Shown here in pieces: positions 1,227 through 27,385 of a stretch of 64,000 bases of DNA (the first letter of the stretch is position 1; every line of letters begins with the position of its first letter). The notes below the pieces were generated by a model that saw only the letters and a program-made list of their open reading frames with translations, had not been told where the DNA came from and did no database searches. The stretch lies in assembly GCF_900099835.1 (NCBI RefSeq), contig NZ_FNKP01000003.1, positions 124,001-188,000 of the forward strand, read 5' to 3'. The translations under genes and the position numbers were made by a program. Source of the DNA: Paraburkholderia fungorum (GTDB taxonomy: Bacteria > Pseudomonadota > Gammaproteobacteria > Burkholderiales > Burkholderiaceae).

Positions 1227-2153
1227 TCAGCCGAGGCCGGCCGCGACCGTGCGGGCTTCGTCGAACGCCTGTGGAAAGCCCAGGTAGACGGGTTTGCCGC
1301 CGGTGCGCATGCGCATGAAGAGCCGGTGCTCGACCTGGTATTTGACGTTGCCGATCGCGAGCGCGCCGATGCCGACCGCGCCCGCATCCGGCAGGCCTTC
1401 GATCGGCTTGCCGTCGTTCATCACGTTGACGCCGGCAATGCCTTCCGGCGGAACAGCGTTGACGTCCGCGGCGATCAGTAGGCGTTTCGCGAACCCGAGG
1501 TCGGCGGAGGACATCACCTGAACGCCCGCGATCGCGGTCGCGAGCACGATCTCGGCGTCGGCCAGTGCACCGCGCAACGCCTCGGGCGTGGTCACGCCGA
1601 TGCCTTTCGTGACGATCCCGAAGCGCTGGTCGATCTCCGCCGACACACCGAGCGCGCGCGCCTGATCGTGATGGCTCGCGATCGTCACGTCGGCGCCGCG
1701 CGAGGCGGCCATGGCCGCCGCCACGCGTCCGACCGCGCCGGTGCCGCCGAGAATCAGCACGCGTCTGCCGCCGAGTTCCATGCCGAACTGTTTGCCCAGG
1801 TGCCGTTCGACCAGCGCGACGGCGGCCGCCGCCGTCGTGTACGAGCCGCTCGGATCGGCGAATACGGAGACCTCGAACGGCGGCACCATCGCCTGACGCG
1901 CGCTGTCGAGCATGTCGGCGGCCTGCATCACGTCGCGCCCGCCGATGAAGATGCCGGTGCGTGACACGCCTTTCGGACCGCGCGAGAAAATTGCGTCCTG
2001 CGTCAGATTCGCGACCATGCCGGGCTGCACGTTGCAATACGGCACGATCACCTGATAGCCCGCGTCGGCGGCCATGTTGACGTCGAACGGACTCATCTGC
2101 GGCGTGGCCGTGAACATGTGCAGGATGTACGGTCTTTCAATGGTTTCGGACAT
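1227..2153 (-). CDS. mtdB: NAD(P)-dependent methylenetetrahydromethanopterin dehydrogenase
   Basis: The 308-residue protein matches MtdB in length and pattern. Its N-terminus is ERPYILHMFTATPQMSPFDV, and a Rossmann-type nucleotide loop GGTGAVGRVAA lies near residue 135. MtdB oxidises methylene-H4MPT to methenyl-H4MPT in the cytoplasm, the first redox step of H4MPT-linked formaldehyde oxidation. It sits between the beta-RFAP synthase gene and the ATP-grasp gene on the same strand. Family assignment is secure; NAD versus NADP preference cannot be read here. Confidence 0.95.
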   Translation of the reverse strand: MSETIERPYILHMFTATPQMSPFDVNMAADAGYQVIVPYCNVQPGMVANLTQDAIFSRGPKGVSRTGIFIGGRDVMQAADMLDSARQAMVPPFEVSVFADPSGSYTTAAAAVALVERHLGKQFGMELGGRRVLILGGTGAVGRVAAAMAASRGADVTIASHHDQARALGVSAEIDQRFGIVTKGIGVTTPEALRGALADAEIVLATAIAGVQVMSSADLGFAKRLLIAADVNAVPPEGIAGVNVMNDGKPIEGLPDAGAVGIGALAIGNVKYQVEHRLFMRMRTGGKPVYLGFPQAFDEARTVAAGLG

Positions 2154-2351: not shown

Positions 2352-3377
2352 TCATGCAGCGTCGATCCGTCGCGTGTGCGCAGCGCTGTTGCGTATCGCC
2401 GCGCCGCTGTTTCTGCCGGCGACGACCGTGCATTCGATATGCGGCAACGCACGCGCGATGTGCCGGGCAGTGGCAAGTGCGCCATTGGCATCGTGCGTGC
2501 TCGCGAGAATTGCGAAACCCGTCGGTCCCCACGATGTCTGGCCGATTCCGGCCATGCGCTCGGCCGCGACCGCGCGCAACACCAACTCGACTTCGGGGCT
2601 CGCAAACACGCCGCCTTGCGCGCTGGCGAAGTATTCACCGATGGTCTGCTGCATCCCGGTCAGCGCGAGCGCGAACGGCGCGAAGTTGCGCTCGGCGACG
2701 CCGGGCAGAATCTGCATTAGCACCAGATGGCACAGGTGCGCGGCGAGGCTCTGTGGAAACGGCGCAAGCGACGCGAGCGCGCGGCGCTCTTCGACGCCGT
2801 GCAAGCCTTCGCGCGAATGATCGCTGACCAGCAGCACGCGCCACTCGTCCGGAAACGGCTGACGCGCGAGCAACGGCGGAACGCCGCGATGCAGCCCGCT
2901 GGCCGGGCCGCCGTCGAGCAGCAATCCGCCCGACTCGAAGCCAAGAATGCCGATCCCCGAGCGCGCGCCGCGCCCAAGCAGCGAGGCGATCTCCACCGTG
3001 CTGGCCGGCTGGCCGACGAGTTGCGTGAACGCGGTGCCGACTGCCAGCGCCAGTTGAGTGCCGGAGCCGAGGCCGGTGTGTGCGCGAGGCGCGTGGCGCA
3101 CGTCGATCGCGAGCGTCGCCGGGCCGTAGGCGGCCTGCAGTTGCGCGAGACAGTGTGCGATCCGTTCGCGCTCGGCGTCGCCGATTGCACCGTTGATCTG
3201 CTGATGTTCGGCAAGGCGTGCTTCGACGCGAGTGCCGTGCGCGTCGATCGCGAGGCCGAGGCTGCCGAAAGCGCGTCCGAGCGATGCGTTCGGATCGAGA
3301 AATCCCAGATGCAGGCGCGCGGGGGCGTCGATCGTGATGGCCGTGTGGGGCGGAACGCGGCGAAACTGAAGCGGCAT
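2352..3377 (-). CDS. beta-ribofuranosylaminobenzene 5'-phosphate synthase (H4MPT biosynthesis)
   Basis: The 341-residue protein is a GHMP-kinase-like beta-RFAP synthase. It opens with a substrate-binding stretch (APARLHLGFLDPNASLGRAF) and has the glycine-rich loop HTGLGSGTQLALAVG near residue 110. The enzyme condenses 4-hydroxybenzoate or p-aminobenzoate with phosphoribosyl pyrophosphate, the committed step to the methanopterin side chain, and is a diagnostic marker for H4MPT in bacteria. The 198-bp gap to mtdB holds nothing I can recognise. Two copies of the CACAG-type operator motif lie about 215-250 bp upstream of the start. Confidence 0.92.
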   Translation of the reverse strand: MPLQFRRVPPHTAITIDAPARLHLGFLDPNASLGRAFGSLGLAIDAHGTRVEARLAEHQQINGAIGDAERERIAHCLAQLQAAYGPATLAIDVRHAPRAHTGLGSGTQLALAVGTAFTQLVGQPASTVEIASLLGRGARSGIGILGFESGGLLLDGGPASGLHRGVPPLLARQPFPDEWRVLLVSDHSREGLHGVEERRALASLAPFPQSLAAHLCHLVLMQILPGVAERNFAPFALALTGMQQTIGEYFASAQGGVFASPEVELVLRAVAAERMAGIGQTSWGPTGFAILASTHDANGALATARHIARALPHIECTVVAGRNSGAAIRNSAAHTRRIDAA

Positions 3378-3710
3378 CGCAAGTGTCCTTGTGGGTGCGC
3401 TGAACAGGGTTTGGCCGGACTGGGTTGGGCCGGAAAAATGCCGACACGGCGCGCGTTCCTGCGCATGTCATCACGCATGTCATCACCTATGGCGGCGGCG
3501 CGGCCCGCTGCGGCAACGCGCCGGGCGAGATCAAGCAGAAGCCATACCAGGCGCAAGCCCGCTTGCGTCGCGATTTTCTGCCGCGGATGCGTACACGCTG
3601 TGTGACGCGGGAGGCGCACTGTGTCACACGTTGTTTCATCGCCGGCGTCAGAGACCCAGCCAGGCTGCTGCTGGACAGCACCGTCGATCCGCACCACCGC
3701 GCAGCACCGC
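3378..3710. other. intergenic region upstream of beta-RFAP synthase gene
   Basis: This 333-bp stretch separates the beta-RFAP synthase start from the end of the pterin dehydratase-like gene. ORFs within it look like frame shadows. It contains a near-direct repeat (CATGTCATCAC twice, about 3474-3487) and the paired operator-like motif at 3590-3626. It probably holds the promoter of the leftward H4MPT genes. Confidence 0.5.
3590..3626 (-). promoter_or_regulatory. paired operator-like motif upstream of H4MPT genes
   Basis: On the minus strand TGACACAGTGCGCCTC (3626 to 3611) and TCACACAGCGTGTACG (3605 to 3590) share the core CACAG and start exactly 21 bp apart, two helical turns. The second is a short palindrome (ACAC-AGC-GTGT). 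The interval also holds the inverted repeat GTGTGAC/GTCACAC (3602-3608 and 3622-3628). Related copies lie upstream of xoxF and moxR. The regulator is unknown. Confidence 0.5.
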
Positions 3711-4109
3711 TCATTCGCCCTGCGCGGATTTCGCTGCGTCGTACTTGATATAGCGAAAGCGCTGATCGTCGGAGGGTGTGCCTTCCAGCGGGCCGTCCTC
3801 GCGTCCGGGCTGCCACTGGATCACCGATTCCATCATCCCGGCGAGCGCAAAATCCTTGTCCGTGATGCCTTTTGCGCTATGCGTCTTGAGCTTCACGGTG
3901 ACGAACGCATACGACACCGTCAGATCCGGGTGATGCCAGGCAGCCTCCGCGAGATGGCCCACGGTATTGACCACCATCAGCGTTCCCTTCCAGCCCTCGG
4001 TGCGGTACTTGCGCCGCAGCCAGCCGTCTTCGAGATACCAGTGCTGCAGCGCACCCGTGAGGCGCGCGCGCACCTCGTCGTCGGAATAGACATGTTCCGT
4101 GTTTGCCAT
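3711..4109 (-). CDS. 4a-hydroxytetrahydrobiopterin dehydratase-like (PCD/DCoH family) protein
   Basis: The 132-residue protein has the pterin-4a-carbinolamine dehydratase signature: an AWHHPDLTVSYAFVTVKL stretch with the His-His-Pro active-site motif near residues 58-60, then TDKDFALA. It is longer at the C-terminus than the usual ~100-residue enzyme. PCD-like genes occur in several proteobacterial H4MPT clusters, so a role in pterin cofactor metabolism rather than phenylalanine hydroxylation is likely, though inferred. It is divergent from xoxF across a 476-bp region with two operator-like motifs. Confidence 0.85.
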   Translation of the reverse strand: MANTEHVYSDDEVRARLTGALQHWYLEDGWLRRKYRTEGWKGTLMVVNTVGHLAEAAWHHPDLTVSYAFVTVKLKTHSAKGITDKDFALAGMMESVIQWQPGREDGPLEGTPSDDQRFRYIKYDAAKSAQGE

Positions 4110-4266
4110 GATGTTCTCCTCGGAAGCGGGCGTTGCCGCCGAACTTCATCGCGATGCAAGTGGCGAGCCAGTCGCGTTGCGTCCTGCCTTGCGTTGCGCA
4201 TCGATTCGCGGGTCGCCTGGTGCTTCGACTCGTGCCTCGCAAAGGACACGCTTCGTTTCACCCGCA

Positions 4267-4282
4267 TGACACAGTATGTGTC
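4267..4282 (+). promoter_or_regulatory. palindromic operator-like site upstream of xoxF
   Basis: TGACACAGTATGTGTC contains the perfect inverted repeat GACACA-GTA-TGTGTC. It is the best-conserved of five related sites in the methanol module. It lies about 300 bp before the xoxF start and about 160 bp before the divergent PCD-like gene. Confidence 0.55.
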
Positions 4283-4310
4283 GCGCCGGGTGGCGCAATC
4301 GGCTCGCGCG

Positions 4311-4326
4311 TGGCACAGCGTGCGAC
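4311..4326 (+). promoter_or_regulatory. second operator-like site upstream of xoxF
   Basis: TGGCACAGCGTGCGAC matches the first site at the CACAG core and the flanking TGR and TG positions. It begins 44 bp downstream of that site, about four helical turns, which fits binding on one face of the helix. Confidence 0.45.
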
Positions 4327-4585
4327 GCAGCGGCGCCTCGCGCGCACGGCTCGCGCCGCGCTGGCGATACGGCGCGCGTCCCCGGCGAACGCGACGAACC
4401 GCGAGACATGTGGCGAGCACTTCAATCGGCATGGAATATGCGTTCGCCGTTCATGCGCCGCGGAGCCCGACATCGAATCGGGACAGCGCGTTGATCGTTA
4501 CCTGCACTCGAGAAGGCGCGCACGATGCATGCGAGGTAGCGTGGGTCATTCGTGAGTTGAACAGCAGGACAATTCTGGAGGAGAC

Positions 4586-6403
4586 ATGAACTTACGCAAC
4601 ATGGTTCTTGGGCTCGCGATCCTCGCATCGGCAGCCTTTAGCTCTATCGTCGCTCAGGCCGATCCGCAGCTCGACAGCCTGATGAAAAATCCATCTAACT
4701 GGGCGGCCCAGGCGGGCGATTATGCGAATCACCGCTACAGCCCGCTCAAGCAGATCAACGAGAACAACGTCGGCAAGCTGCAGGTCGCATGGACCATGTC
4801 GACCGGTGTGCTGCGCGGCCATGAAGGCGCGCCGCTCGTGATCGGCGACACGATGTATATCCATTCACCCTTTCCCAACAAGGTCATTGCAATCAACCTG
4901 AAGGACCAGACGTTCCTCTGGCAATACCTGCCCAAACAGGATGACCAGGTCGTCTCCGTGATGTGCTGCGACACCGTGAATCGCGGCCTCGCTTACGGCG
5001 ACGGCAAGATCTTCCTGCAACAGGCCGACACCAAACTCGTCGCGCTGAACGCGAAGACGGGCGACGTGGTATGGACCGCGCAAAACGGTAATCCGAAGGC
5101 AGGCGAAACCAACACCAATGCGCCGCACGTTTTCGGCGACAAGGTGCTGACCGGGATTTCCGGTGGCGAATTCGGCGTGCGCGGGCGCTTGATCGCTTAT
5201 GACATCAAGACCGGCAAGCCGGCCTGGACTGCCTACAGCACCGGTCCCGACAACGAAATGCTGATCGATCCGCAAAAGACCATGACGTATGTCGACGGGC
5301 AGATGGTGCCGGTTGGCGCGGATTCGTCGCTCAAGTCGTGGAAGGGGGATCAGTGGAAGCTGGGCGGCGGCACCACGTGGGGCTGGTATGCGTGGGACCC
5401 GAAGCTCAACCTGATCTACTACGGTACTGGCAATCCGGGTACATGGAACCCGTCGCAACGTCCGGGCGACAACAAATGGTCGATGTCGATCTTCGCGCGC
5501 GACCTGAATACCGGCACGGCACGCTGGGTCTACCAGATGACGCCGCACGACGAATGGGATTATGACGGCGTCAACGAAATGATCCTTTCCGATCTGAACA
5601 TCGACGGCAAAAAGGTGCCTTCGATCGTCCACTTCGATCGCAACGGTTTCGGCTACACGCTCAATCGTGAAACCGGACAGCTGCTGGTCGCGCAGAAGTA
5701 CGACCCGGCGGTGAACTGGGCCGACCGCGTCGATCTGAAGAGCGGTTTGCCGATCCGCAACGCGGCGTACTCGACCCAGGCGGCAGGCTCGGATCACAAC
5801 GTGAAGAACATCTGCCCGGCAGCGCTCGGTTCGAAAGACCAGCAGCCGGCTGCGTTCGATCCGAACTCGAACCTGTTCCTCGTGCCGACGAACCATGTCT
5901 GCATGGACTACGAGCCTTTCGAAGTCGACTACGTGTCGGGACAGCCGTATGTCGGCGCCACGCTGTCGATGTATCCGGGCCCGAACGAGAACAACGCGAT
6001 GGGCAACTTCATCGCGTGGGATGCGAGCAAGGGCAAGATCGTCTACTCGAAGCCGGAGAAGTTCTCGGTGTGGTCGGGCGTGCTTGCCACGGCTGGCGGC
6101 GTCGCGTTCTACGGCACGCTCGAAGGCTATCTGAAGGCCGTGCGCATCAGGGACGGCAAGGAACTGTGGCGCTTCAAGACGCCGTCCGGAATCATCGGCA
6201 ACGTCTTCACGTACGAGTATCAGGGCAAGCAGTATGTCGGCGTGTATTCGGGCATTGGCGGCTGGGCCGGCATCGGCATGGCAGCGGGACTCGAAAAGTC
6301 GACTGAAGGTCTGGGCGCGGTCGGCGGTTATCGTGAACTCGCGAAGTACACCGCGCTCGGCGGCACGCTCTTCGTGTTCGCGATTCCGAGCGAAAAGAGC
6401 TGA
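4586..6403 (+). CDS. xoxF: lanthanide-dependent PQQ methanol dehydrogenase, XoxF type
   Basis: The 605-residue precursor has a Sec signal peptide ending near AQA (about residue 25), so the enzyme is periplasmic. It has the vicinal disulfide Cys127-Cys128 under PQQ, Glu195 and Asn283 as metal ligands, and [12 protein letters not shown] with catalytic Asp325 and an extra Asp327. That second Asp is the lanthanide-binding residue that distinguishes XoxF from calcium-type MxaF, which has Ala there. The enzyme oxidises methanol, passing electrons to the cytochrome encoded next. A GGAGGAG ribosome site supports the start. No mxaF or mxaI is in the window. Confidence 0.96.
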
Positions 6404-6439
6404 ACGAGTCGCGCAAACCACCAGGGGGATCCGAACGGC

Positions 6440-6473
6440 TGCCGGTGCATGAGTTGCAAGCAGCACACCGGCA
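6440..6473 (+). terminator. hairpin between xoxF and xoxG
   Basis: TGCCGGTG (6440-6447) and CACCGGCA (6466-6473) form an 8-bp perfect stem with an 18-base loop. There is no T tract, so it is more likely an RNA-stabilising or processing hairpin that lets xoxF mRNA outnumber xoxG mRNA than a full terminator. Confidence 0.4.
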
Positions 6474-6590
6474 GACGCTTCGGTTTCCATACGAATCGAA
6501 GCATCATTCTGAGCGCGCCCCTATTCGAATCTGTGCCGATGCGTCGGTCGAACGCAGCGGGGCGCCGCTTATCTTGAAGGAGACATGTGC

Positions 6591-7010
6591 ATGAAAGGCC
6601 GATCATTCCTGTTGCTGGTGACACTGCCCGCGGCACTCCTCCTGCTGCCCGTCGGGTACGCGCAAACCAATCCGTCGATCGCGCAGGTCGCGTACAAGGT
6701 GGTCGACGGCAGCAAGGTCGACACCGACACACTGCAGGGGTGGAAGACATGGCGTGCGCTCGCGTGCGAACGTTGCCATGGCGCGCAGCAGCAGGGCATG
6801 GTTGGACCCTCGCTGATCGACGCGTTCAAGACGCTCGACAAGGATGAATTCCATCGCACGGTGTTCGGCGGACGGGTGGCCAAAGGCATGCCCGACTTCA
6901 GCACGAGCCAGATGATGCAGAAGAACTGGGAGAACCTCTACGCGTACCTGAAAGGACGCTCAGACGGACAGATCAAGCCGGGCGATCTGCAGGCCATCGA
7001 TTCCAAATAA
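6591..7010 (+). CDS. xoxG: XoxG-type cytochrome c, electron acceptor of XoxF
   Basis: The product (139 residues from ATG 6591) has a signal peptide ending at GYA-Q, one haem-binding motif CERCH, and a downstream GMPDF that supplies the axial Met. This is the small class I cytochrome found beside xoxF, which takes electrons from the dehydrogenase in the periplasm. An upstream ATG at 6585 is in frame, but AAGGAG at 6577-6582 is only 2 bases from it and 8 bases from 6591, so 6591 is preferred. Confidence 0.88.
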   Translation: MKGRSFLLLVTLPAALLLLPVGYAQTNPSIAQVAYKVVDGSKVDTDTLQGWKTWRALACERCHGAQQQGMVGPSLIDAFKTLDKDEFHRTVFGGRVAKGMPDFSTSQMMQKNWENLYAYLKGRSDGQIKPGDLQAIDSK

Positions 7011-7044
7011 AAGCCGGCGCCGCCACTCTTCCGGAGGCATCATC

Positions 7045-7956
7045 ATGCGTCAAACCAGAAGCATGTCCGTGCATGCCGCGCTCAGCGCGGCCGCCTTGTG
7101 TTGCGCCGTGCTCGCGAGCGCGGCCGTGCAGGCAGACGGCCCTGCGTTGCCGAATAACGACGGCGCGGACGGCGTCCTCAGAGTCTGTGCGGACCCGAAC
7201 AACATGCCCCTGTCGAACAATAAGGGCGAAGGCTACGAGAACCGGATCGCGAGTCAGATGGCGAGCGACTTCGGCTACAAGCTCGAATACACGTATTTTC
7301 CGCAGCGCATGGGCTTCGTGCGCCACACGTTGCGCGAGAAGGAAGAGAGCGGTGACCGCTTCAGGTGCGACCTGATCATCGGCGTGCCGAAGGGTTATGA
7401 CATGACGTCGACGACGCAGCCGTATCTGCGCTCGACGTATGCGATGGTGTTTCCGAACCGGCCCGAGTTCGCCAGTATCCATACGCCCGACGATCTTCTC
7501 AAGCTGCCGCCCGATCAGTTGCACAAACTGCGCTTCGGGATCTTCTCGCAGACCCCGGCGGTCGACTGGCTGCTCGGCCATGGTCTGATCGATCAGGCGG
7601 TTTCGTATCAGGTGCAAAGCGGTGATCCGCAGGAATATCCCGGTCAGATGATCGAGCAGGATCTTGCGAAGGGCAATGTCGATGTGGTGTTCCTTTGGGG
7701 GCCGATAGCGGGCTATTTCGCCAGGCGCGCCGGCGACTCTGTGCGGCTGGTGCCTTTTCCGCCGGGCCCCGGCATCCGCTTCGACTACACGATCTCGATG
7801 GGTGTGCGCTACGGCGAAAAAGCGTGGAAAGACAAGGTGGATCAATGGATCGGCGCGAATCACGACAAGATCGACAGCATCCTGACGAGCTACGAGGTGC
7901 CGTTGCTCAAGCCGGTCGACGTGCCGGGTCCGAAGTCCGGTGACGCTTCGCCATGA
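7045..7956 (+). CDS. xoxJ: XoxJ/MoxJ-family periplasmic binding protein
   Basis: The 303-residue exported protein has a signal peptide ending near VQA and the family opening LRVCADPNNMPLSN. This is a solute-binding-protein fold that in the xox cluster is thought to bind and help activate the dehydrogenase rather than deliver a nutrient. No ABC permease lies nearby, which fits a maturation role. It is in the xoxF-xoxG-xoxJ order and ends with an ATGA overlap onto the next gene. Confidence 0.88.
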   Translation: MRQTRSMSVHAALSAAALCCAVLASAAVQADGPALPNNDGADGVLRVCADPNNMPLSNNKGEGYENRIASQMASDFGYKLEYTYFPQRMGFVRHTLREKEESGDRFRCDLIIGVPKGYDMTSTTQPYLRSTYAMVFPNRPEFASIHTPDDLLKLPPDQLHKLRFGIFSQTPAVDWLLGHGLIDQAVSYQVQSGDPQEYPGQMIEQDLAKGNVDVVFLWGPIAGYFARRAGDSVRLVPFPPGPGIRFDYTISMGVRYGEKAWKDKVDQWIGANHDKIDSILTSYEVPLLKPVDVPGPKSGDASP

Positions 7957-8717
7957 CCGCTGCGCGCAGCAGCGGGCTGCGTGCGGTCGCGGCACGGTTC
8001 GTCATCGCTGCATCGCTCAGCGGCGCGTGCGTCGTGCCGGCCGCACGCGCTGCAGACCCGGCCGGCAGCAGCGACATCACGGCCGCCGAACATCTGATCT
8101 TCACGACCGATCATCTGCACGGCGTCGCCGCTCAAACCGAACTCGACTACGCGATGATCGATTCGCAGCAGCCGTCGCGCAGTGCCGACGTGGTCAAGGT
8201 GCTGGTGGTGAGCCCGGACAACGCAAAGGGTGACGCTCAGGTGTCGGACCATACCGGCAGCGTGCCGCTGCCGAGCGGCGGTCTGCAGTGCAATCCGGTG
8301 ATCATCTATTTTCTGGAACGCGACATCACCGAGATGCAGGGGCTGACGGGCGGACAGCGGCGCTACTTCCAGCAGCGGCTGCGCCTCGCGCTCGCGGCCG
8401 GTCCGCAGATCGAGAACGTGACGAGCGAAACCGGCGGCAAATCTGTCAGCGCGCATCGCGTCGTCGTGCAGCCGTATCTGAACGACCCGAACGCGGCGCG
8501 CTTCGCGGAGCTGACGGGCAAGCGCTATACCTTCCTGATCGCCGATGCGGTGCCGGGGCAGGTGCTGCAGATTCGCACCGACGTGCCCGGCGCGAACAAC
8601 GACTTCGCGCATCCTGTGCATTCGGAGACGCTGAGCTTCCAGTCGGTGCTGCGCAGATTGCCGTCGCCGGCAACCGCGCCGCCGAAGTCGTCGAATGCGC
8701 CGAGAGCCAGCCGCTGA
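7953..8717 (+). CDS. exported protein of unknown function in the xox operon
   Basis: This 254-residue protein starts in a 4-bp ATGA overlap with xoxJ, so it is probably coupled to it. It has a signal peptide ending near ARA-AD and no recognised catalytic motif. It has a single Cys after the signal (GGLQCNP) and a Pro/Ser-rich tail. I do not recognise the family. Its position suggests a periplasmic accessory role in methanol oxidation. Confidence 0.75.
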   Translation: MTAARSSGLRAVAARFVIAASLSGACVVPAARAADPAGSSDITAAEHLIFTTDHLHGVAAQTELDYAMIDSQQPSRSADVVKVLVVSPDNAKGDAQVSDHTGSVPLPSGGLQCNPVIIYFLERDITEMQGLTGGQRRYFQQRLRLALAAGPQIENVTSETGGKSVSAHRVVVQPYLNDPNAARFAELTGKRYTFLIADAVPGQVLQIRTDVPGANNDFAHPVHSETLSFQSVLRRLPSPATAPPKSSNAPRASR

Positions 8718-8730
8718 GCGGCTGCTTCCC

Positions 8731-9741
8731 ATGCAGAGCGCGCGCTTCGCGACGAACGCAATCAAGCTGAACTTCATCCGCTCGCTGACGCTGCGCCAGT
8801 TGCAGATTTTCGTCGTCGCGAGCCGCTACACGAGTTTTGCGCGTGCGGCAGAGGAACTGCATCTGACGCAGCCGGCCGTGTCGATGCAGATTCATCAGCT
8901 CGAAGAGACGATCGGCCTGCGCCTGTTCGAACGCGTCGCGCGCAAGCTCACGCTGACGGAGGCGGGCGAGATGCTGACGCATCACGCGAGCCGCATCCTC
9001 GGCGAGATCAAGGACGCCGAGGACGCGATGCTCTCGCTCAGACACGCCGACAGCGGTTCGATCAACATGGGGATCGTCAGTTCGGCGACTTACTTCGCGC
9101 CAAAACTGCTCGCGCTTTATTCGCGTCTTTATCCGAAAGTCGACGTGCATTTTTCGGTCGGCAATCGCGATGCCTTGCTGAGACTGCTGCAGGACAACGC
9201 GATCGATCTTGCGATCATGGGCCGTCCGCCGCCCGAACTCGATACGACCACCGAGCCGCTGGCGAGGCACCCGCAGGTGGTGGTCGCGCCGCTCACGCAT
9301 GCTTTGCGCGCGGCGCGCCGGTTCGATCTGCAGGAATTGCGCGACGATACGTTCCTGTTGCGCGAGCCCGGCTCCGGCACGCGGATGGCCGCCGAAGCGA
9401 TGTTCCGCCAGCATCTGTTCACGCCCGCGAAGATCGTCACGCTCGGCAGCAACGAAACGATCAAGCAGGCGGTGATGGCCGGCATGGGCGTGAGCCTGAT
9501 TTCACTGCATACGCTGCTGCTGGAGTTGCGCACTGGCGAGATTGCACTGCTCGACGTGAACGGCACGCCGATCGAGCGCACGTGGCAGATCGTGCATCTG
9601 CGCACGAAACAGCTGTCGCCGACAAGCGTGGTGTTTCGCCAGTTTCTGCTCGATCACACGGCCACGCATCTGGAGCATGAGTACGCGCCGTTCGTCGGCG
9701 CGGCGACGCACCTTCGAGCCGACACAGGAGCGGGCGAATGA
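8731..9741 (+). CDS. LysR-type regulator, CbbR-like
   Basis: The protein (336 residues from ATG 8731; 348 if the in-frame ATG at 8695 is used) has the LysR winged helix SFARAAEELHLTQPAVSMQI. Its effector domain has CbbR hallmarks such as AIMGRPP, FLLREPGSGTRMA and GSNETIKQAVMAGMGVSLIS. CbbR proteins switch on the Calvin cycle and sense its intermediates. Within a xox operon this may link methanol oxidation to CO2 assimilation, which is inference. Neither start has a strong ribosome site. The gene overlaps the next by ATGA. Confidence 0.88.
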   Translation: MQSARFATNAIKLNFIRSLTLRQLQIFVVASRYTSFARAAEELHLTQPAVSMQIHQLEETIGLRLFERVARKLTLTEAGEMLTHHASRILGEIKDAEDAMLSLRHADSGSINMGIVSSATYFAPKLLALYSRLYPKVDVHFSVGNRDALLRLLQDNAIDLAIMGRPPPELDTTTEPLARHPQVVVAPLTHALRAARRFDLQELRDDTFLLREPGSGTRMAAEAMFRQHLFTPAKIVTLGSNETIKQAVMAGMGVSLISLHTLLLELRTGEIALLDVNGTPIERTWQIVHLRTKQLSPTSVVFRQFLLDHTATHLEHEYAPFVGAATHLRADTGAGE

Positions 9742-10286
9742 GCCGGCGCTGGCTGGTGCGGGTGATGTCAGGCGTCGGCGCGTCGTTGCTGATATCGAGC
9801 GGATGGGCCGAGCCGGTTTCGATCGCGGTGATGAACTGCACGCTGATCGATGACAACGCCGCCTACAACGACGCCGATACCAACCGCATCCAGCACGCGC
9901 GCATCGGCATGATCAGCGATGCGCTGCGCGCGCAGCTGGAGGCGAGCGGGCGCTATCGCGTCGCGGATGCGAGCCGTGCCGCCGATCTGATCGCAACGCT
10001 CGAAGCGGAGCAGGATCTGACGACGTGCGACGGTTGCGCGAGACAGGTCGGCCGCGCACTGGGGGTCGGGCAGGTCGGCGTGTGCTGGGTGCAGAAAGTC
10101 AGCAACCTGATTCTCAATCTGAATCTGCGCGTGGAAGACGTGGCGAGCGGCAGGATGCTGTTCCAGCGCTCGGTGGACATTCGCGGCAACACCGATCTGT
10201 CATGGCGGCGCGGTGCAACAGCGCTGGTCGGCCTGCTGGTCGATCAATCGTCGCAGGATGTTTCGCCGCACAGCATGCCCCGATGA
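9738..10286 (+). CDS. exported protein of unknown function (resembles DUF3280/DUF2380 proteins)
   Basis: The 182-residue protein has a signal peptide ending near GWA-EP, followed by an NTP-free, CsgG/FlgO-like alternation (IAVMNCTLIDDNA, ISDALRAQLEASGRYRV). It has a CDGCARQVGRALG segment near residue 96. Proteins of this general type accompany xox or mxa genes in several methylotrophs. The family name is tentative and the function unknown. It overlaps the LysR gene by 4 bp and closes the first rightward operon. Confidence 0.7.
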   Translation: MSRRWLVRVMSGVGASLLISSGWAEPVSIAVMNCTLIDDNAAYNDADTNRIQHARIGMISDALRAQLEASGRYRVADASRAADLIATLEAEQDLTTCDGCARQVGRALGVGQVGVCWVQKVSNLILNLNLRVEDVASGRMLFQRSVDIRGNTDLSWRRGATALVGLLVDQSSQDVSPHSMPR

Positions 10287-10299
10287 CGCCGGCCGCAAA

Positions 10300-10315
10300 T
10301 GGCACAGTGTGTCCC
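10300..10315 (+). promoter_or_regulatory. operator-like site upstream of moxR operon
   Basis: TGGCACAGTGTGTCCC matches the sites upstream of xoxF and of the H4MPT genes at TGRCACAGYRTGY. It lies in the 220-bp gap between the exported-protein gene and moxR, about 190 bp before the moxR start. Confidence 0.5.
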
Positions 10316-10506
10316 CAAACGCCGTGACAGCCTGATCAGCCGGCTACGTTCGCACGGACCGCCGCGCGCCTCTTCGAGACCGGCACAAAGCATGCTTGAA
10401 CGGATGCCGGCACGCAAAGCGTTGAGAGGCAGCGCCGATACGACACGGCACGCAAGCCACGATAACGACCCAGGCTCGGGCAGGCCACACGGAGGAGATC
10501 GCATCG

Positions 10507-11526
10507 ATGGGTTCTGGCGAACAGCTTCAGGACTGGCGTCTTCACGCACTTCAGATCGAGAAGGAAGTCGCGAAAGTCGTCATCGGCCAGCAGCAGATGC
10601 TGCGGCTCATCAACGTCGCGCTGTTCGCCCGGGGCCATGTGCTGCTCGAAGGCGGTGTCGGCGTCGGCAAGACCACCGTGCTGCGCGCATTTGCGCGCGT
10701 CGTCGGCGGCGAATTCGAGCGGGTGGAAGGCACGATCGACCTGATGCCGGGCGACCTTGTCTATCACACCTATGTCGACGCCGACGGCAAGCCGCGCATC
10801 GACCCCGGTCCGCTGCTGCGCCACGGCGACCAGTTGACCACGTTCTTCTTCAACGAGATCAACCGCGCGCGTCCGCAGGTGCAGTCGCTGCTGTTGCGTG
10901 CAATGGCCGAGCGTTCAGTGTGGGCGTTCGACCGCGAATACCGCTTTCCGCACATGACGGTGTTCGCCGACCGCAACAAGGTCGAGAAAGAAGAAACCTT
11001 CGAGCTGGCTTCCGCCGCGCGCGACCGCTTTCTGTTCGAGCTGAACATGCCGACTCCCGCCGATGCCGACGTCCGGCGTTCGCTGATCTTCGAGACAACG
11101 TTCCATGACGTGGATGCGCTGCTTGCGCAACTGACACCCGGCCTCGTGCCGTGGGAGCAACTGAACAGCGTCGGCGCATGGATTCAGCACGACGTCGAGG
11201 CGAGCCCGACGATCGAGCGTTACGCGCTGGACATCTGGCAGGCGACCGAAGCGCCGCAGCGTTTCGGCATCGAACTCGAAGGCGTCGACATGCCGCAGCT
11301 GATCCTCGCAGGCGCGAGCCCGCGCGGCATGAGCGCGCTGCTGCGAGCCGCGCGTGTGGTCGCGTGGCTCGCGGGGCGCTCGCATCTGATTCCGGAGGAC
11401 CTGCACGAAGTGCTGATGCCGGCGCTCGGTCATCGTGTGTTCTTTACGCCGATCTACGAGTTGCGTCGTCAGGAACTGGCCGAGGCGCTGATCGCGCAGA
11501 TCATGGCGAAAGTCGCGGTTCCCTGA
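10507..11526 (+). CDS. moxR: MoxR-family AAA+ ATPase (MxaR)
   Basis: The 339-residue cytoplasmic ATPase has Walker A GGVGVGKTT at residues 49-57 and a Walker B-like FFFNEIN at 113-119, with Asn where many MoxR proteins have Asp. MoxR/MxaR ATPases act with von Willebrand factor A (VWA) domain partners to insert the metal or mature methanol dehydrogenase. GGAGGAG about 11 bases upstream supports the start. It heads a compact operon with mxaS, mxaA, mxaC, mxaK and mxaL. Confidence 0.92.
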   Translation: MGSGEQLQDWRLHALQIEKEVAKVVIGQQQMLRLINVALFARGHVLLEGGVGVGKTTVLRAFARVVGGEFERVEGTIDLMPGDLVYHTYVDADGKPRIDPGPLLRHGDQLTTFFFNEINRARPQVQSLLLRAMAERSVWAFDREYRFPHMTVFADRNKVEKEETFELASAARDRFLFELNMPTPADADVRRSLIFETTFHDVDALLAQLTPGLVPWEQLNSVGAWIQHDVEASPTIERYALDIWQATEAPQRFGIELEGVDMPQLILAGASPRGMSALLRAARVVAWLAGRSHLIPEDLHEVLMPALGHRVFFTPIYELRRQELAEALIAQIMAKVAVP

Positions 11527-14890: not shown

Positions 14891-15897
14891 GCGGGACACG
14901 CACAGGTTCGGCGACTCGCGCCGGTCGCGGCTTTCGCAACCTGCGTCACTGGTTGACGCCGCTCGCGCTCGGAGCGCTGGTGGCGGCGGTCGCGATGCCG
15001 GACATGACGTTGCCGCGCAATACGTTCGAGTACATCGTCACGTTCGACATCACGCAGAGCATGGATGTCGAGGATGTCGTGCTGAACGGCGCGCCGGTGA
15101 GCCGCCTCAAATTCGCTAAGGCAGCGATGCGCGACGCGCTCGGACGGCTACCGTGCGGCTCGAAAGTCGGGTGGAGCATTTTCACGGGGCAGCGGACCTT
15201 GCTGCTGCTGTCGCCGCTCGAGGTGTGCGCGAACTACGACGCGCTGCTGATGTCGCTCGACGGCATCGACGGCCGCATGCGCTGGACCAACTGGAGCCGG
15301 ATCGCCGAGGGGGGAGTGTATTCGGCGGTGCGCGTCGCCAGGGACGCGGGTCATGGCATTGCGATCGTATTCGCGACCGATGGGCAGGAGGCGCCGCCGC
15401 TTCCGTCGTCGCGTGCGTTGATGCCGGACATCAATCCGGCACGGATCGATGGATGGTTGATCGGCGTAGGTGGCGATCAGCCTGCGGCGATTCCGAAGTC
15501 GGATAGCAACGGCAACCGGATCGGATACTGGCAGGCCGATGATGTGATCCAGGTTCCCGCAGCTTCAGGTGCCGATGCGCAGGCGGAATCGCACGAGGAA
15601 CAGTCTGCGTTGCACGGTCAGTATCTCGCGTTCGTAGCCGGCCAGACTGGCCTTGGCTATCGGCGGTTATGGGCGCCGACTGCGTTGGGCGATGCGATGC
15701 TCGACGCGCGCCTCGCGCATCGCGAGCAGGTGCCGACGGATTTGCGCTGGGTGCCCGCGCTGATCGCGCTGGTGCTGCTGATTGCGCGGTTCATGCCGGA
15801 CGCTGTTTGGGGAGGGTTGCGGCGTCGATGGATAAGGACCCGCGGCTTCTACACAGCTTCGGGGAGACGGGGTGCAAAGCCGAATCCCACGGCGTGA
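14887..15897 (+). CDS. mxaL: MxaL-like VWA protein
   Basis: The 336-residue protein has an N-terminal membrane segment, a VWA domain with YIVTFDITQSMDVED (about residues 54-68) and a C-terminal membrane helix (ALIALVLLIARFM). It ends the moxR-mxaSACKL operon, and its stop codon lies inside the stem of the 15892-15922 hairpin. The DITQS motif keeps the DxSxS-type metal site in DxTxS form. Confidence 0.85.
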   Translation: MSGTRTGSATRAGRGFRNLRHWLTPLALGALVAAVAMPDMTLPRNTFEYIVTFDITQSMDVEDVVLNGAPVSRLKFAKAAMRDALGRLPCGSKVGWSIFTGQRTLLLLSPLEVCANYDALLMSLDGIDGRMRWTNWSRIAEGGVYSAVRVARDAGHGIAIVFATDGQEAPPLPSSRALMPDINPARIDGWLIGVGGDQPAAIPKSDSNGNRIGYWQADDVIQVPAASGADAQAESHEEQSALHGQYLAFVAGQTGLGYRRLWAPTALGDAMLDARLAHREQVPTDLRWVPALIALVLLIARFMPDAVWGGLRRRWIRTRGFYTASGRRGAKPNPTA

Positions 15898-27311: not shown

Positions 27312-27385
27312 ACGAAGAGCCGGCACAGCGTGCCCAGTCGCGCGGCCGGTCAATTGCAACTCCGACAACGATCCGGAGGAGACAG

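Follow-up and report, generated by a model that had tools for sequence, protein, structure and literature searches.

The window analysed here, a stretch of 64,000 nucleotides from Paraburkholderia fungorum, carries part of a methanol/H4MPT gene module. A gene for a xoxF-type PQQ methanol dehydrogenase (4586..6403, plus strand; PF01011, TIGR03075), for which the name xoxF was taken over from an earlier sequence-only reading of this DNA, diverges from a PCD-like (pterin-4a-carbinolamine dehydratase) gene (3711..4109, minus strand; PF01329). The leftward unit begins with a beta-RFAP synthase gene (2352..3377, minus strand; TIGR00144 over its cut-off) and includes a gene for an mtdB-like methylene-H4MPT dehydrogenase (1227..2153, minus strand; PF09176), while a moxR-like AAA ATPase is encoded at 10507..11526 (plus strand; PF07726).

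The earlier reading had quoted five sites of a shared motif in the intergenic regions of these units, whose positions are correct, as are the 21- and 44-bp spacings. The motif was described as having 16 bases; TGRCACAGYRTGY has 13. Exact matches start at 4267, 4311 and 10300 on the plus strand, whereas the two minus-strand copies (3593-3605 and 3614-3626) carry one mismatch each, so the motif is shared exactly by only three of the five. In place of this one-sided 13-mer, the best form of the motif is the symmetric TGRCACANNNTGTGYCR. The main site, TGACACAGTATGTGTCG (4267..4283, plus strand), lies between the PCD gene and xoxF where they diverge and fits it perfectly; the perfect palindrome announced for one site holds over 15 bp (4268-4282, GACACA-GTA-TGTGTC). 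A secondary UAS-like site, TGGCACAGCGTGCGACG (4311..4327, plus strand), follows 44 bp downstream. Two UAS-like sites precede the beta-RFAP synthase/mtdB unit on the minus strand, namely site 1, TGACACAGTGCGCCTCC (3610..3626), and site 2, TCACACAGCGTGTACGC (3589..3605). The moxR site, TGGCACAGTGTGTCCCC (10300..10316, plus strand), is accompanied by a further half-site, GTGACAGCCTG, from 10324.

The frequency of the motif was assessed by pattern searches of the genome with reversed-pattern controls. Exact matches to TGRCACAGYRTGY number six in 8,581,175 bp, three of them within these 6.7 kb (Poisson P ~2e-8, a post hoc value because the motif was drawn from the sites tested). The remaining three lie inside Pfam-matched genes (TPR/sulfotransferase, BamE-domain and DUF2827), and the open reading frames spanning the sites of the window have no Pfam match. 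The xoxF site also falls in a stop-free frame of 327 aa. Relaxed matches are no more frequent than expected: at up to two mismatches the window alone holds 22 against 18.5 expected, and at one mismatch the whole genome holds 139 against 181 for the reversed control, which places relaxed matches at a background of about one per 64 kb. This background accounts for the similar string near 27322, for which the earlier reading had asked that the background rate be checked. Equal motif density elsewhere, named there as a ground for rejection, was thus not found for exact matches, but relaxed matches do stand at background level. The 8.58-Mb genome has two copies of the perfect palindrome TGRCACANNNTGTGYCR, one preceding xoxF and the other in the divergent gap of an AcoR-like activator gene; at two mismatches it is not over-represented genome-wide (224 versus 356 for the reversed control).

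It is conservation, not density, that makes the sites convincing. From 87 upstream regions of xoxF, five exact duplicates and one region that was too short were removed, and in 80 of the resulting 81 distinct Paraburkholderia/Caballeronia loci, whose flanks have diverged, TGACACAG is present upstream of xoxF. In 26 sequences with flanks less than 60% identical it holds 2.0 bits per base and the two flanks 0.23 and 0.32. Of the secondary site at 4311, relatives keep no more than a degenerate GTGNCAC half-site with a similar offset, seen in some of those listed. At the beta-RFAP synthase unit TGACACAG was found at site 1 in 21 of 76 loci, and site 2 reads GCGTCACAYAGCG in most of 16 aligned regions. 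The proposal that the three intergenic regions of the methanol/H4MPT module share one conserved motif, with conservation upstream of orthologous xoxF genes as part of its test, is borne out.

Downstream of each set of sites, sigma-54-like -24/-12 elements were recognized. That of xoxF, CGGCATGGAATATGC (4427..4441, plus strand), recurs as a pattern at -150 to -161 in 74 of 81 loci, and 80 of 81 have GG-N10-GC somewhere between -166 and -130. For the beta-RFAP synthase unit the element is TGGTATGGCTTCTGC (3535..3549, minus strand), whose strict pattern is found in 67 of 76 loci against 0.03 expected from shuffles, though the UAS-like site is absent from 55 of the 76. The moxR element, CGGCACAAAGCATGC (10381..10395, plus strand), is kept together with its UAS: of 39 loci, 26 have both and 13 have neither, one is never seen alone, and no shuffled moxR region had both. 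The element of the divergent PCD-like gene, TGGCTCGCCACTTGCA (4155..4170, minus strand), is less widely kept, with a score of at least 9 in 32 of 81 loci versus 2.0 expected from shuffles. In the window, the gap from site to element measures 39 and 60 bp at the beta-RFAP synthase gene, 64 bp at moxR, 96 bp at the PCD gene and 143 bp at xoxF. Across relatives the position of the xoxF element is fixed and the distance from site to element ranges from 64 to 214 bp (median 131, n = 79).

Placed 39-143 bp upstream of -24/-12 elements, the sites resemble enhancers for a sigma-54 activator, and the classical operator suggested earlier is better replaced by a UAS. The features of such promoters are present: a conserved GG-N10-GC (GG and GC 12 bp apart) between site and gene, an activator site tens to ~250 bp upstream at no fixed distance, and two sigma-54 genes in the genome (PF04552). 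Since three of the elements (those of xoxF, beta-RFAP synthase and moxR) score only 8/11 against TGGCACG-N4-TTGC, the sigma-54 assignment rests on the GG/GC geometry and its conservation. Elsewhere in the genome six palindromes with one mismatch were found, four of which have no -24/-12 element scoring at least 9 within 300 bp. Another, L235 (C1:2979336), lies in open frames of ~228 aa and has a score-10 element ~145 bp downstream; the palindromes of L235 and L236 themselves score 9 as -24/-12 elements.

The candidate binder is a protein of 672 aa whose gene (G000:C3:116762-118780) sits in a group of H4MPT genes ~10 kb upstream of xoxF. It combines GAF, sigma-54 AAA+ and Fis HTH domains (PF01590, PF00158 and PF02954, all over their cut-offs), with a possible PAS domain (PF08448) below its cut-off, and has a GAFTGA loop, Walker A and Walker B. 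Its orthologue is present in 68 of 68 xoxF-bearing congeners versus 0 of 76 others. The DNA itself shows the sites, the -24/-12 geometry, their conservation, the place of the activator gene and its co-occurrence with xoxF; from these we infer binding, dependence on RpoN and the signal. We consider it likely that the sites are UAS for a sigma-54 (RpoN) activator, probably this AcoR-like protein, which would switch on the methanol/H4MPT module. In the proposed mechanism, the signal may be an alcohol such as methanol, or else formaldehyde or a related metabolite; the activator would bind TGRCACANNNTGTGYCR-type sites, then oligomerise and, through DNA looping, remodel the RNA polymerase-sigma-54 complex at the -24/-12 elements. 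The predicted targets are the xoxF, beta-RFAP synthase/mtdB and moxR units, and probably the divergent PCD gene.

It is unlikely, by our estimate, that the sites are UAS of sigma-54 promoters bound by another enhancer-binding protein, with the AcoR-like gene co-inherited for some other reason. The genome encodes 16 full sigma-54 activators, i.e. 15 besides the AcoR-like one, which leaves room for such a protein. Paralogues of the activator (58-64% identical, with a near-identical recognition helix) also leave room for it: a shared site with at most one mismatch is absent from nine of ten paralogue regions (L306 has one with two mismatches), and in region L314 a site lies ~3.8 kb away. The tie between protein and site is accordingly one by association. 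The palindrome beside the activator gene, moreover, is kept with zero or one mismatch in only 14 of 39 genomes and has two to four mismatches in the other 25. Against another binder stand the co-occurrence of activator and xoxF, the upstream gap of the AcoR-like gene as the place of the genome's only other perfect palindrome, and, outside the clade, the 13 of 54 loci in which a homologue of the activator (33-54% identical, in 10 cases at least 40%) is encoded no more than ~9 kb from xoxF. In L262 both arms of the activator-gap palindrome have changed and its symmetry is kept. No convincing -24/-12 element was seen beside the activator's palindrome. The paralogues were also considered as a link between HTH and motif; with nine of ten regions lacking the site, they neither support nor name it. 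A -24/-12 element scoring at least 10 occurs somewhere in four of the ten regions.

The sequence-only reading had proposed a CbbR-like LysR protein (8695-9741) or a LuxR-type regulator as binder, both of which seem less likely than the AcoR-like activator beside the only other perfect palindrome. LysR (CbbR) operators follow a T-N11-A type pattern beside the regulated promoter. The LysR gene lies closer to the sites than does that of the activator and is syntenic in most of the loci listed; nevertheless, a classical operator of this protein or of another sigma-70-type regulator, with a coincidental -24/-12 geometry, seems very improbable, given that three to four units have a conserved GG-N10-GC on the downstream side of their sites and that the spacing between site and element varies. 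Furthermore, the xoxF site is retained in L047 and, weakly (15/19), in L051, neither of which has a LysR match within 19.8 kb. Chance resemblance picked post hoc is hardly credible: the motif was indeed read off its own sites and its relaxed matches do not outnumber those of shuffles or of the reversed pattern, but conservation between diverged flanks already contradicts it, and the clustering of exact sites speaks against it as well.

Massilia, Variovorax and other Burkholderiales show weaker traces of the arrangement at their xoxF genes, which hints at a wider rule. Outside Paraburkholderia/Caballeronia, 53 of 54 xoxF loci were scored (L055 has too little upstream sequence). A -24/-12 score of at least 9 was found in 20 of the 53 versus 1.6-1.8 expected, and a palindrome with at most two mismatches in 12 versus 1.2 expected; in the 33 distant loci lacking a score of 9 the link was not seen.

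To our knowledge, sigma-54 control of a lanthanide-type methanol dehydrogenase has not been described. Work on the switching of these enzymes has, as far as is known, centred on two-component systems of methylotrophs and Pseudomonas. If the proposal is true, one sigma-54 activator would couple xoxF to H4MPT cofactor synthesis, which would explain the joint onset of methanol oxidation and formaldehyde handling in facultative Burkholderiales; the protein, sites and promoters for testing are now named. The activator shares the GAF/AAA+/Fis-HTH architecture of AcoR, and public records name many of its relatives among the matches listed 'transcriptional regulator of acetoin/glycerol metabolism'. 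The likeness is one of domain architecture, whereas the gene here lies in an H4MPT/methanol cluster, and AcoR of Clostridiales is described as having a distinct UAS motif (PMC6615313). BmoR of Thauera butanivorans is an alcohol-responsive sigma-54 activator whose target has -24/-12 boxes preceded, at a distance of 193 bp, by an inverted repeat/UAS (PMC8899819; PMC8784404), and PBMO is reported to respond still after hairpin deletion (PMC8899819). Compared by description, BmoR/PBMO likewise joins a sigma-54 activator of alcohol-related metabolism to a UAS upstream of -24/-12, although BmoR controls butane monooxygenase. Similarly, MmoR/mmoX combines a GAF-type activator with sigma-54 control of a C1 oxidation operon (PMC5874634), but the target there is the methane monooxygenase of methanotrophs, not a lanthanide-type methanol dehydrogenase or H4MPT genes. 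In PedS2/PedR2 of Pseudomonas putida, related PQQ alcohol dehydrogenases are under lanthanide regulation (PMC6115532) by a two-component system, in contrast to the one-component sigma-54 activator proposed here.

In addition, xoxF has a conserved, lineage-specific 5' leader with a predicted start (4453..4585, plus strand), comprising a covarying hairpin P1 (4466-4482), a nearly invariant helix P2 (4496-4502 with 4535-4541) and the RBS. That this ~130-nt leader is a new cis-regulatory RNA, sensing enzyme state (for example lanthanide or PQQ supply) and gating xoxF translation, is quite doubtful. Single-sequence folding gave z = 0.16, Rfam returned no match, no strong match was found in the 54 distant xoxF loci, and among the 196 relatives no strong match lay upstream of unrelated genes. 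A widely spread riboswitch, sought in both of these sets, was not found. In an alignment of 43 Paraburkholderia/Caballeronia sequences, 12 pairs have 99.6% of cells paired. The covariation score exceeds all 500 shuffles, which ignore relatedness; two-sided changes affect three of five pairs in P1 and none in P2, and 18 and 33 of the 500 shuffles reached as many two-sided pairs and pair types, respectively. Besides two weak other matches, the 196 relatives hold 57 strong ones, from which 11 of the 68 xoxF genomes are absent; these 57 occur one per genome and all abut xoxF.

In the four-contig genome of Paraburkholderia fungorum (8.58 Mb; the window being G000:C3:124001-188000), a conserved upstream activating sequence (UAS) of a sigma-54 regulon appears quite likely to join xoxF, H4MPT synthesis and moxR in Paraburkholderia, with the neighbouring AcoR-like activator probably running the regulon. 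Confidence in this full statement is slightly lowered, since the sites at moxR and beta-RFAP synthase are conserved less widely than the xoxF site. The kind of mechanism is known, and its use for xoxF, H4MPT and moxR appears new: such use was not found described in a search of open-licence papers on xoxF, methanol dehydrogenase, H4MPT or sigma-54 activators, and an earlier description may exist elsewhere. Gene identities were checked with Pfam and NCBIfam. The mtdB-like (1227-2153), beta-RFAP synthase (2352-3377) and PCD-like (3711-4109) genes read leftward, while xoxF (4586-6403), genes for a cytochrome c and a moxJ-like protein, an unassigned ORF, a CbbR-like LysR gene (8695-9741), a DUF3280 gene and moxR (10507-11526) are listed rightward in this order. 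Before the window start lie mch, an MptN-like RimK gene, a CitG-family gene, a folB-domain ORF, the sigma-54 activator and a DUF6513/DHPS-like gene; the matches behind the names MptN and DHPS fall under their NCBIfam cut-offs. Calvin-cycle genes (FBPase, PRK, aldolase, epimerase) occur directly past the H4MPT cluster (L153:9-3727, the region flanking the window), and a CbbR-like LysR gene is present in the window.

The sequence-only reading had proposed one shared motif at five sites, near 3605 and 3626 on the minus strand and 4267, 4311 and 10300 on the plus strand; exact TGRCACAGYRTGY was found at three of them, the other two differing by one mismatch. Six exact copies exist genome-wide, three in this module and three within Pfam-supported genes. 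With one mismatch, the motif is not commoner than its reversed control (139 vs 181 genome-wide), and with two mismatches the window shows no enrichment of it, so that density by itself is a modest argument and conservation is needed. The expected conservation upstream of orthologous xoxF was borne out. The 87 loci comprised 59 stretches of whole genomes, 27 named contigs and the window, whose closest named xoxF relatives are Paraburkholderia and Caballeronia; 81 distinct upstream regions were kept, and TGACACAG occurs in 80 in a single orientation, Ca. Paraburkholderia kirkii being the exception. In 26 sequences with flanks <60% identical, it retains 2.0 bits per base, against 0.23 and 0.32 in the flanks, and the WATGT directly after it is also kept. 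GGCAYGGAAYMYGC lies ~155 bp upstream of the xoxF start in 74/81 loci (-150 to -161). GG-N10-GC is found at this position in 80/81, at a variable 64-214 bp below the UAS; its 12 bp from GG to GC resemble sigma-54 promoters, whose consensus is given as YTGGCACGrNNNTTGCW in an excerpt of PMC5874634. Elsewhere, a one-mismatch palindrome at G000:C1:2979336 has a score-10 -24/-12-like element ~145 bp downstream, inside open frames, and is possibly an extra target or chance.

The same GG/GC geometry is conserved upstream of beta-RFAP synthase and moxR (alignments of 16 regions). For beta-RFAP synthase, 67/76 loci carry the strict -24/-12 pattern (0.03 expected) and 21/76 carry TGACACAG, all 21 together with the element. 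At moxR, UAS and element occur together in 26/39 loci, neither in 13 and one alone in none; no dinucleotide-shuffled region carried the two together. In the 13 (L169, L174, L176-L180, L182-L186 and L035), moxR may be read through from upstream genes; three, L176-L178, have instead a one-mismatch palindrome 36 bp upstream of moxR. In front of the divergent PCD gene, TGGCTCGCCACTTGCA lies 45 bp from the start, and 32/81 loci score at least 9 of 11 there (2.0 expected). The main UAS is thus flanked by a pair of divergent sigma-54-like promoters.

The genome has 16 full sigma-54 activators, and one of them, with GAF, AAA+ (GAFTGA) and Fis HTH domains, is encoded inside the H4MPT cluster, ~10 kb from xoxF. 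Within the 8.58 Mb, TGRCACANNNTGTGYCR is matched perfectly at two places, upstream of xoxF and in this activator's divergent gap (C3:119072-119088). There, a perfect TGGCACACTGTGTGCCG palindrome (L153:8072-8088) lies between the activator gene and the folB-domain ORF, with no convincing -24/-12 element beside it. With the first base free as Y, this palindrome shows 0-1 mismatch in 14/39 genomes and 2-4 in 25/39; in L262, a relative's locus, both arms are altered together (GACACA/TGTGTC). An activator orthologue (≥73% identity) is present in 68/68 congeners with XoxF ≥88% and in 0/76 without such XoxF, some of which have relatives of 60-65% elsewhere. A second AcoR-like activator in congeners (L305-L314), 58-64% identical with nearly the same recognition helix, is located beside other genes, in 6 of 10 regions from congeners without an xoxF orthologue, and apparently serves a separate regulon. 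Two sigma-54 (PF04552) genes were found, at G000:C1:704444 and C2:1522055.

The xoxF 5' leader (4453-4585) is conserved between its predicted start and the RBS, is a lineage-specific RNA and has no Rfam match. It contains one covarying hairpin, P1, which in 43 leader sequences shows two-sided changes at 3/5 pairs; helix P2 has 99.7% of its cells paired yet is almost invariant, and hence lacks independent support. A covariance model run on 196 relatives gave 57 strong matches, each in a different genome and each directly adjoining xoxF; at 54 distant xoxF loci it gave none. Within the window, a second, weak hit at 15409-15535 (22.5 bits) is probably due to chance. Translation or RNA stability could also underlie the leader conservation, and no ligand is implied.

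Beyond the genus, the comparison covered 53 loci carrying xoxF, from Massilia, Variovorax, Pollutimonas, Thauera, Nevskia and further bacteria. A -24/-12 score of at least 9 within 260 bp occurs in 20/53 (1.6 in shuffles, 1.8 in random windows) and was not seen in the other 33, and a palindrome with ≤2 mismatches occurs in 12/53 (1.2 in either control). Activator homologues lie within ~9 kb of xoxF in 13/54 distant loci. Together these counts suggest an older link, statistical and not locus by locus.
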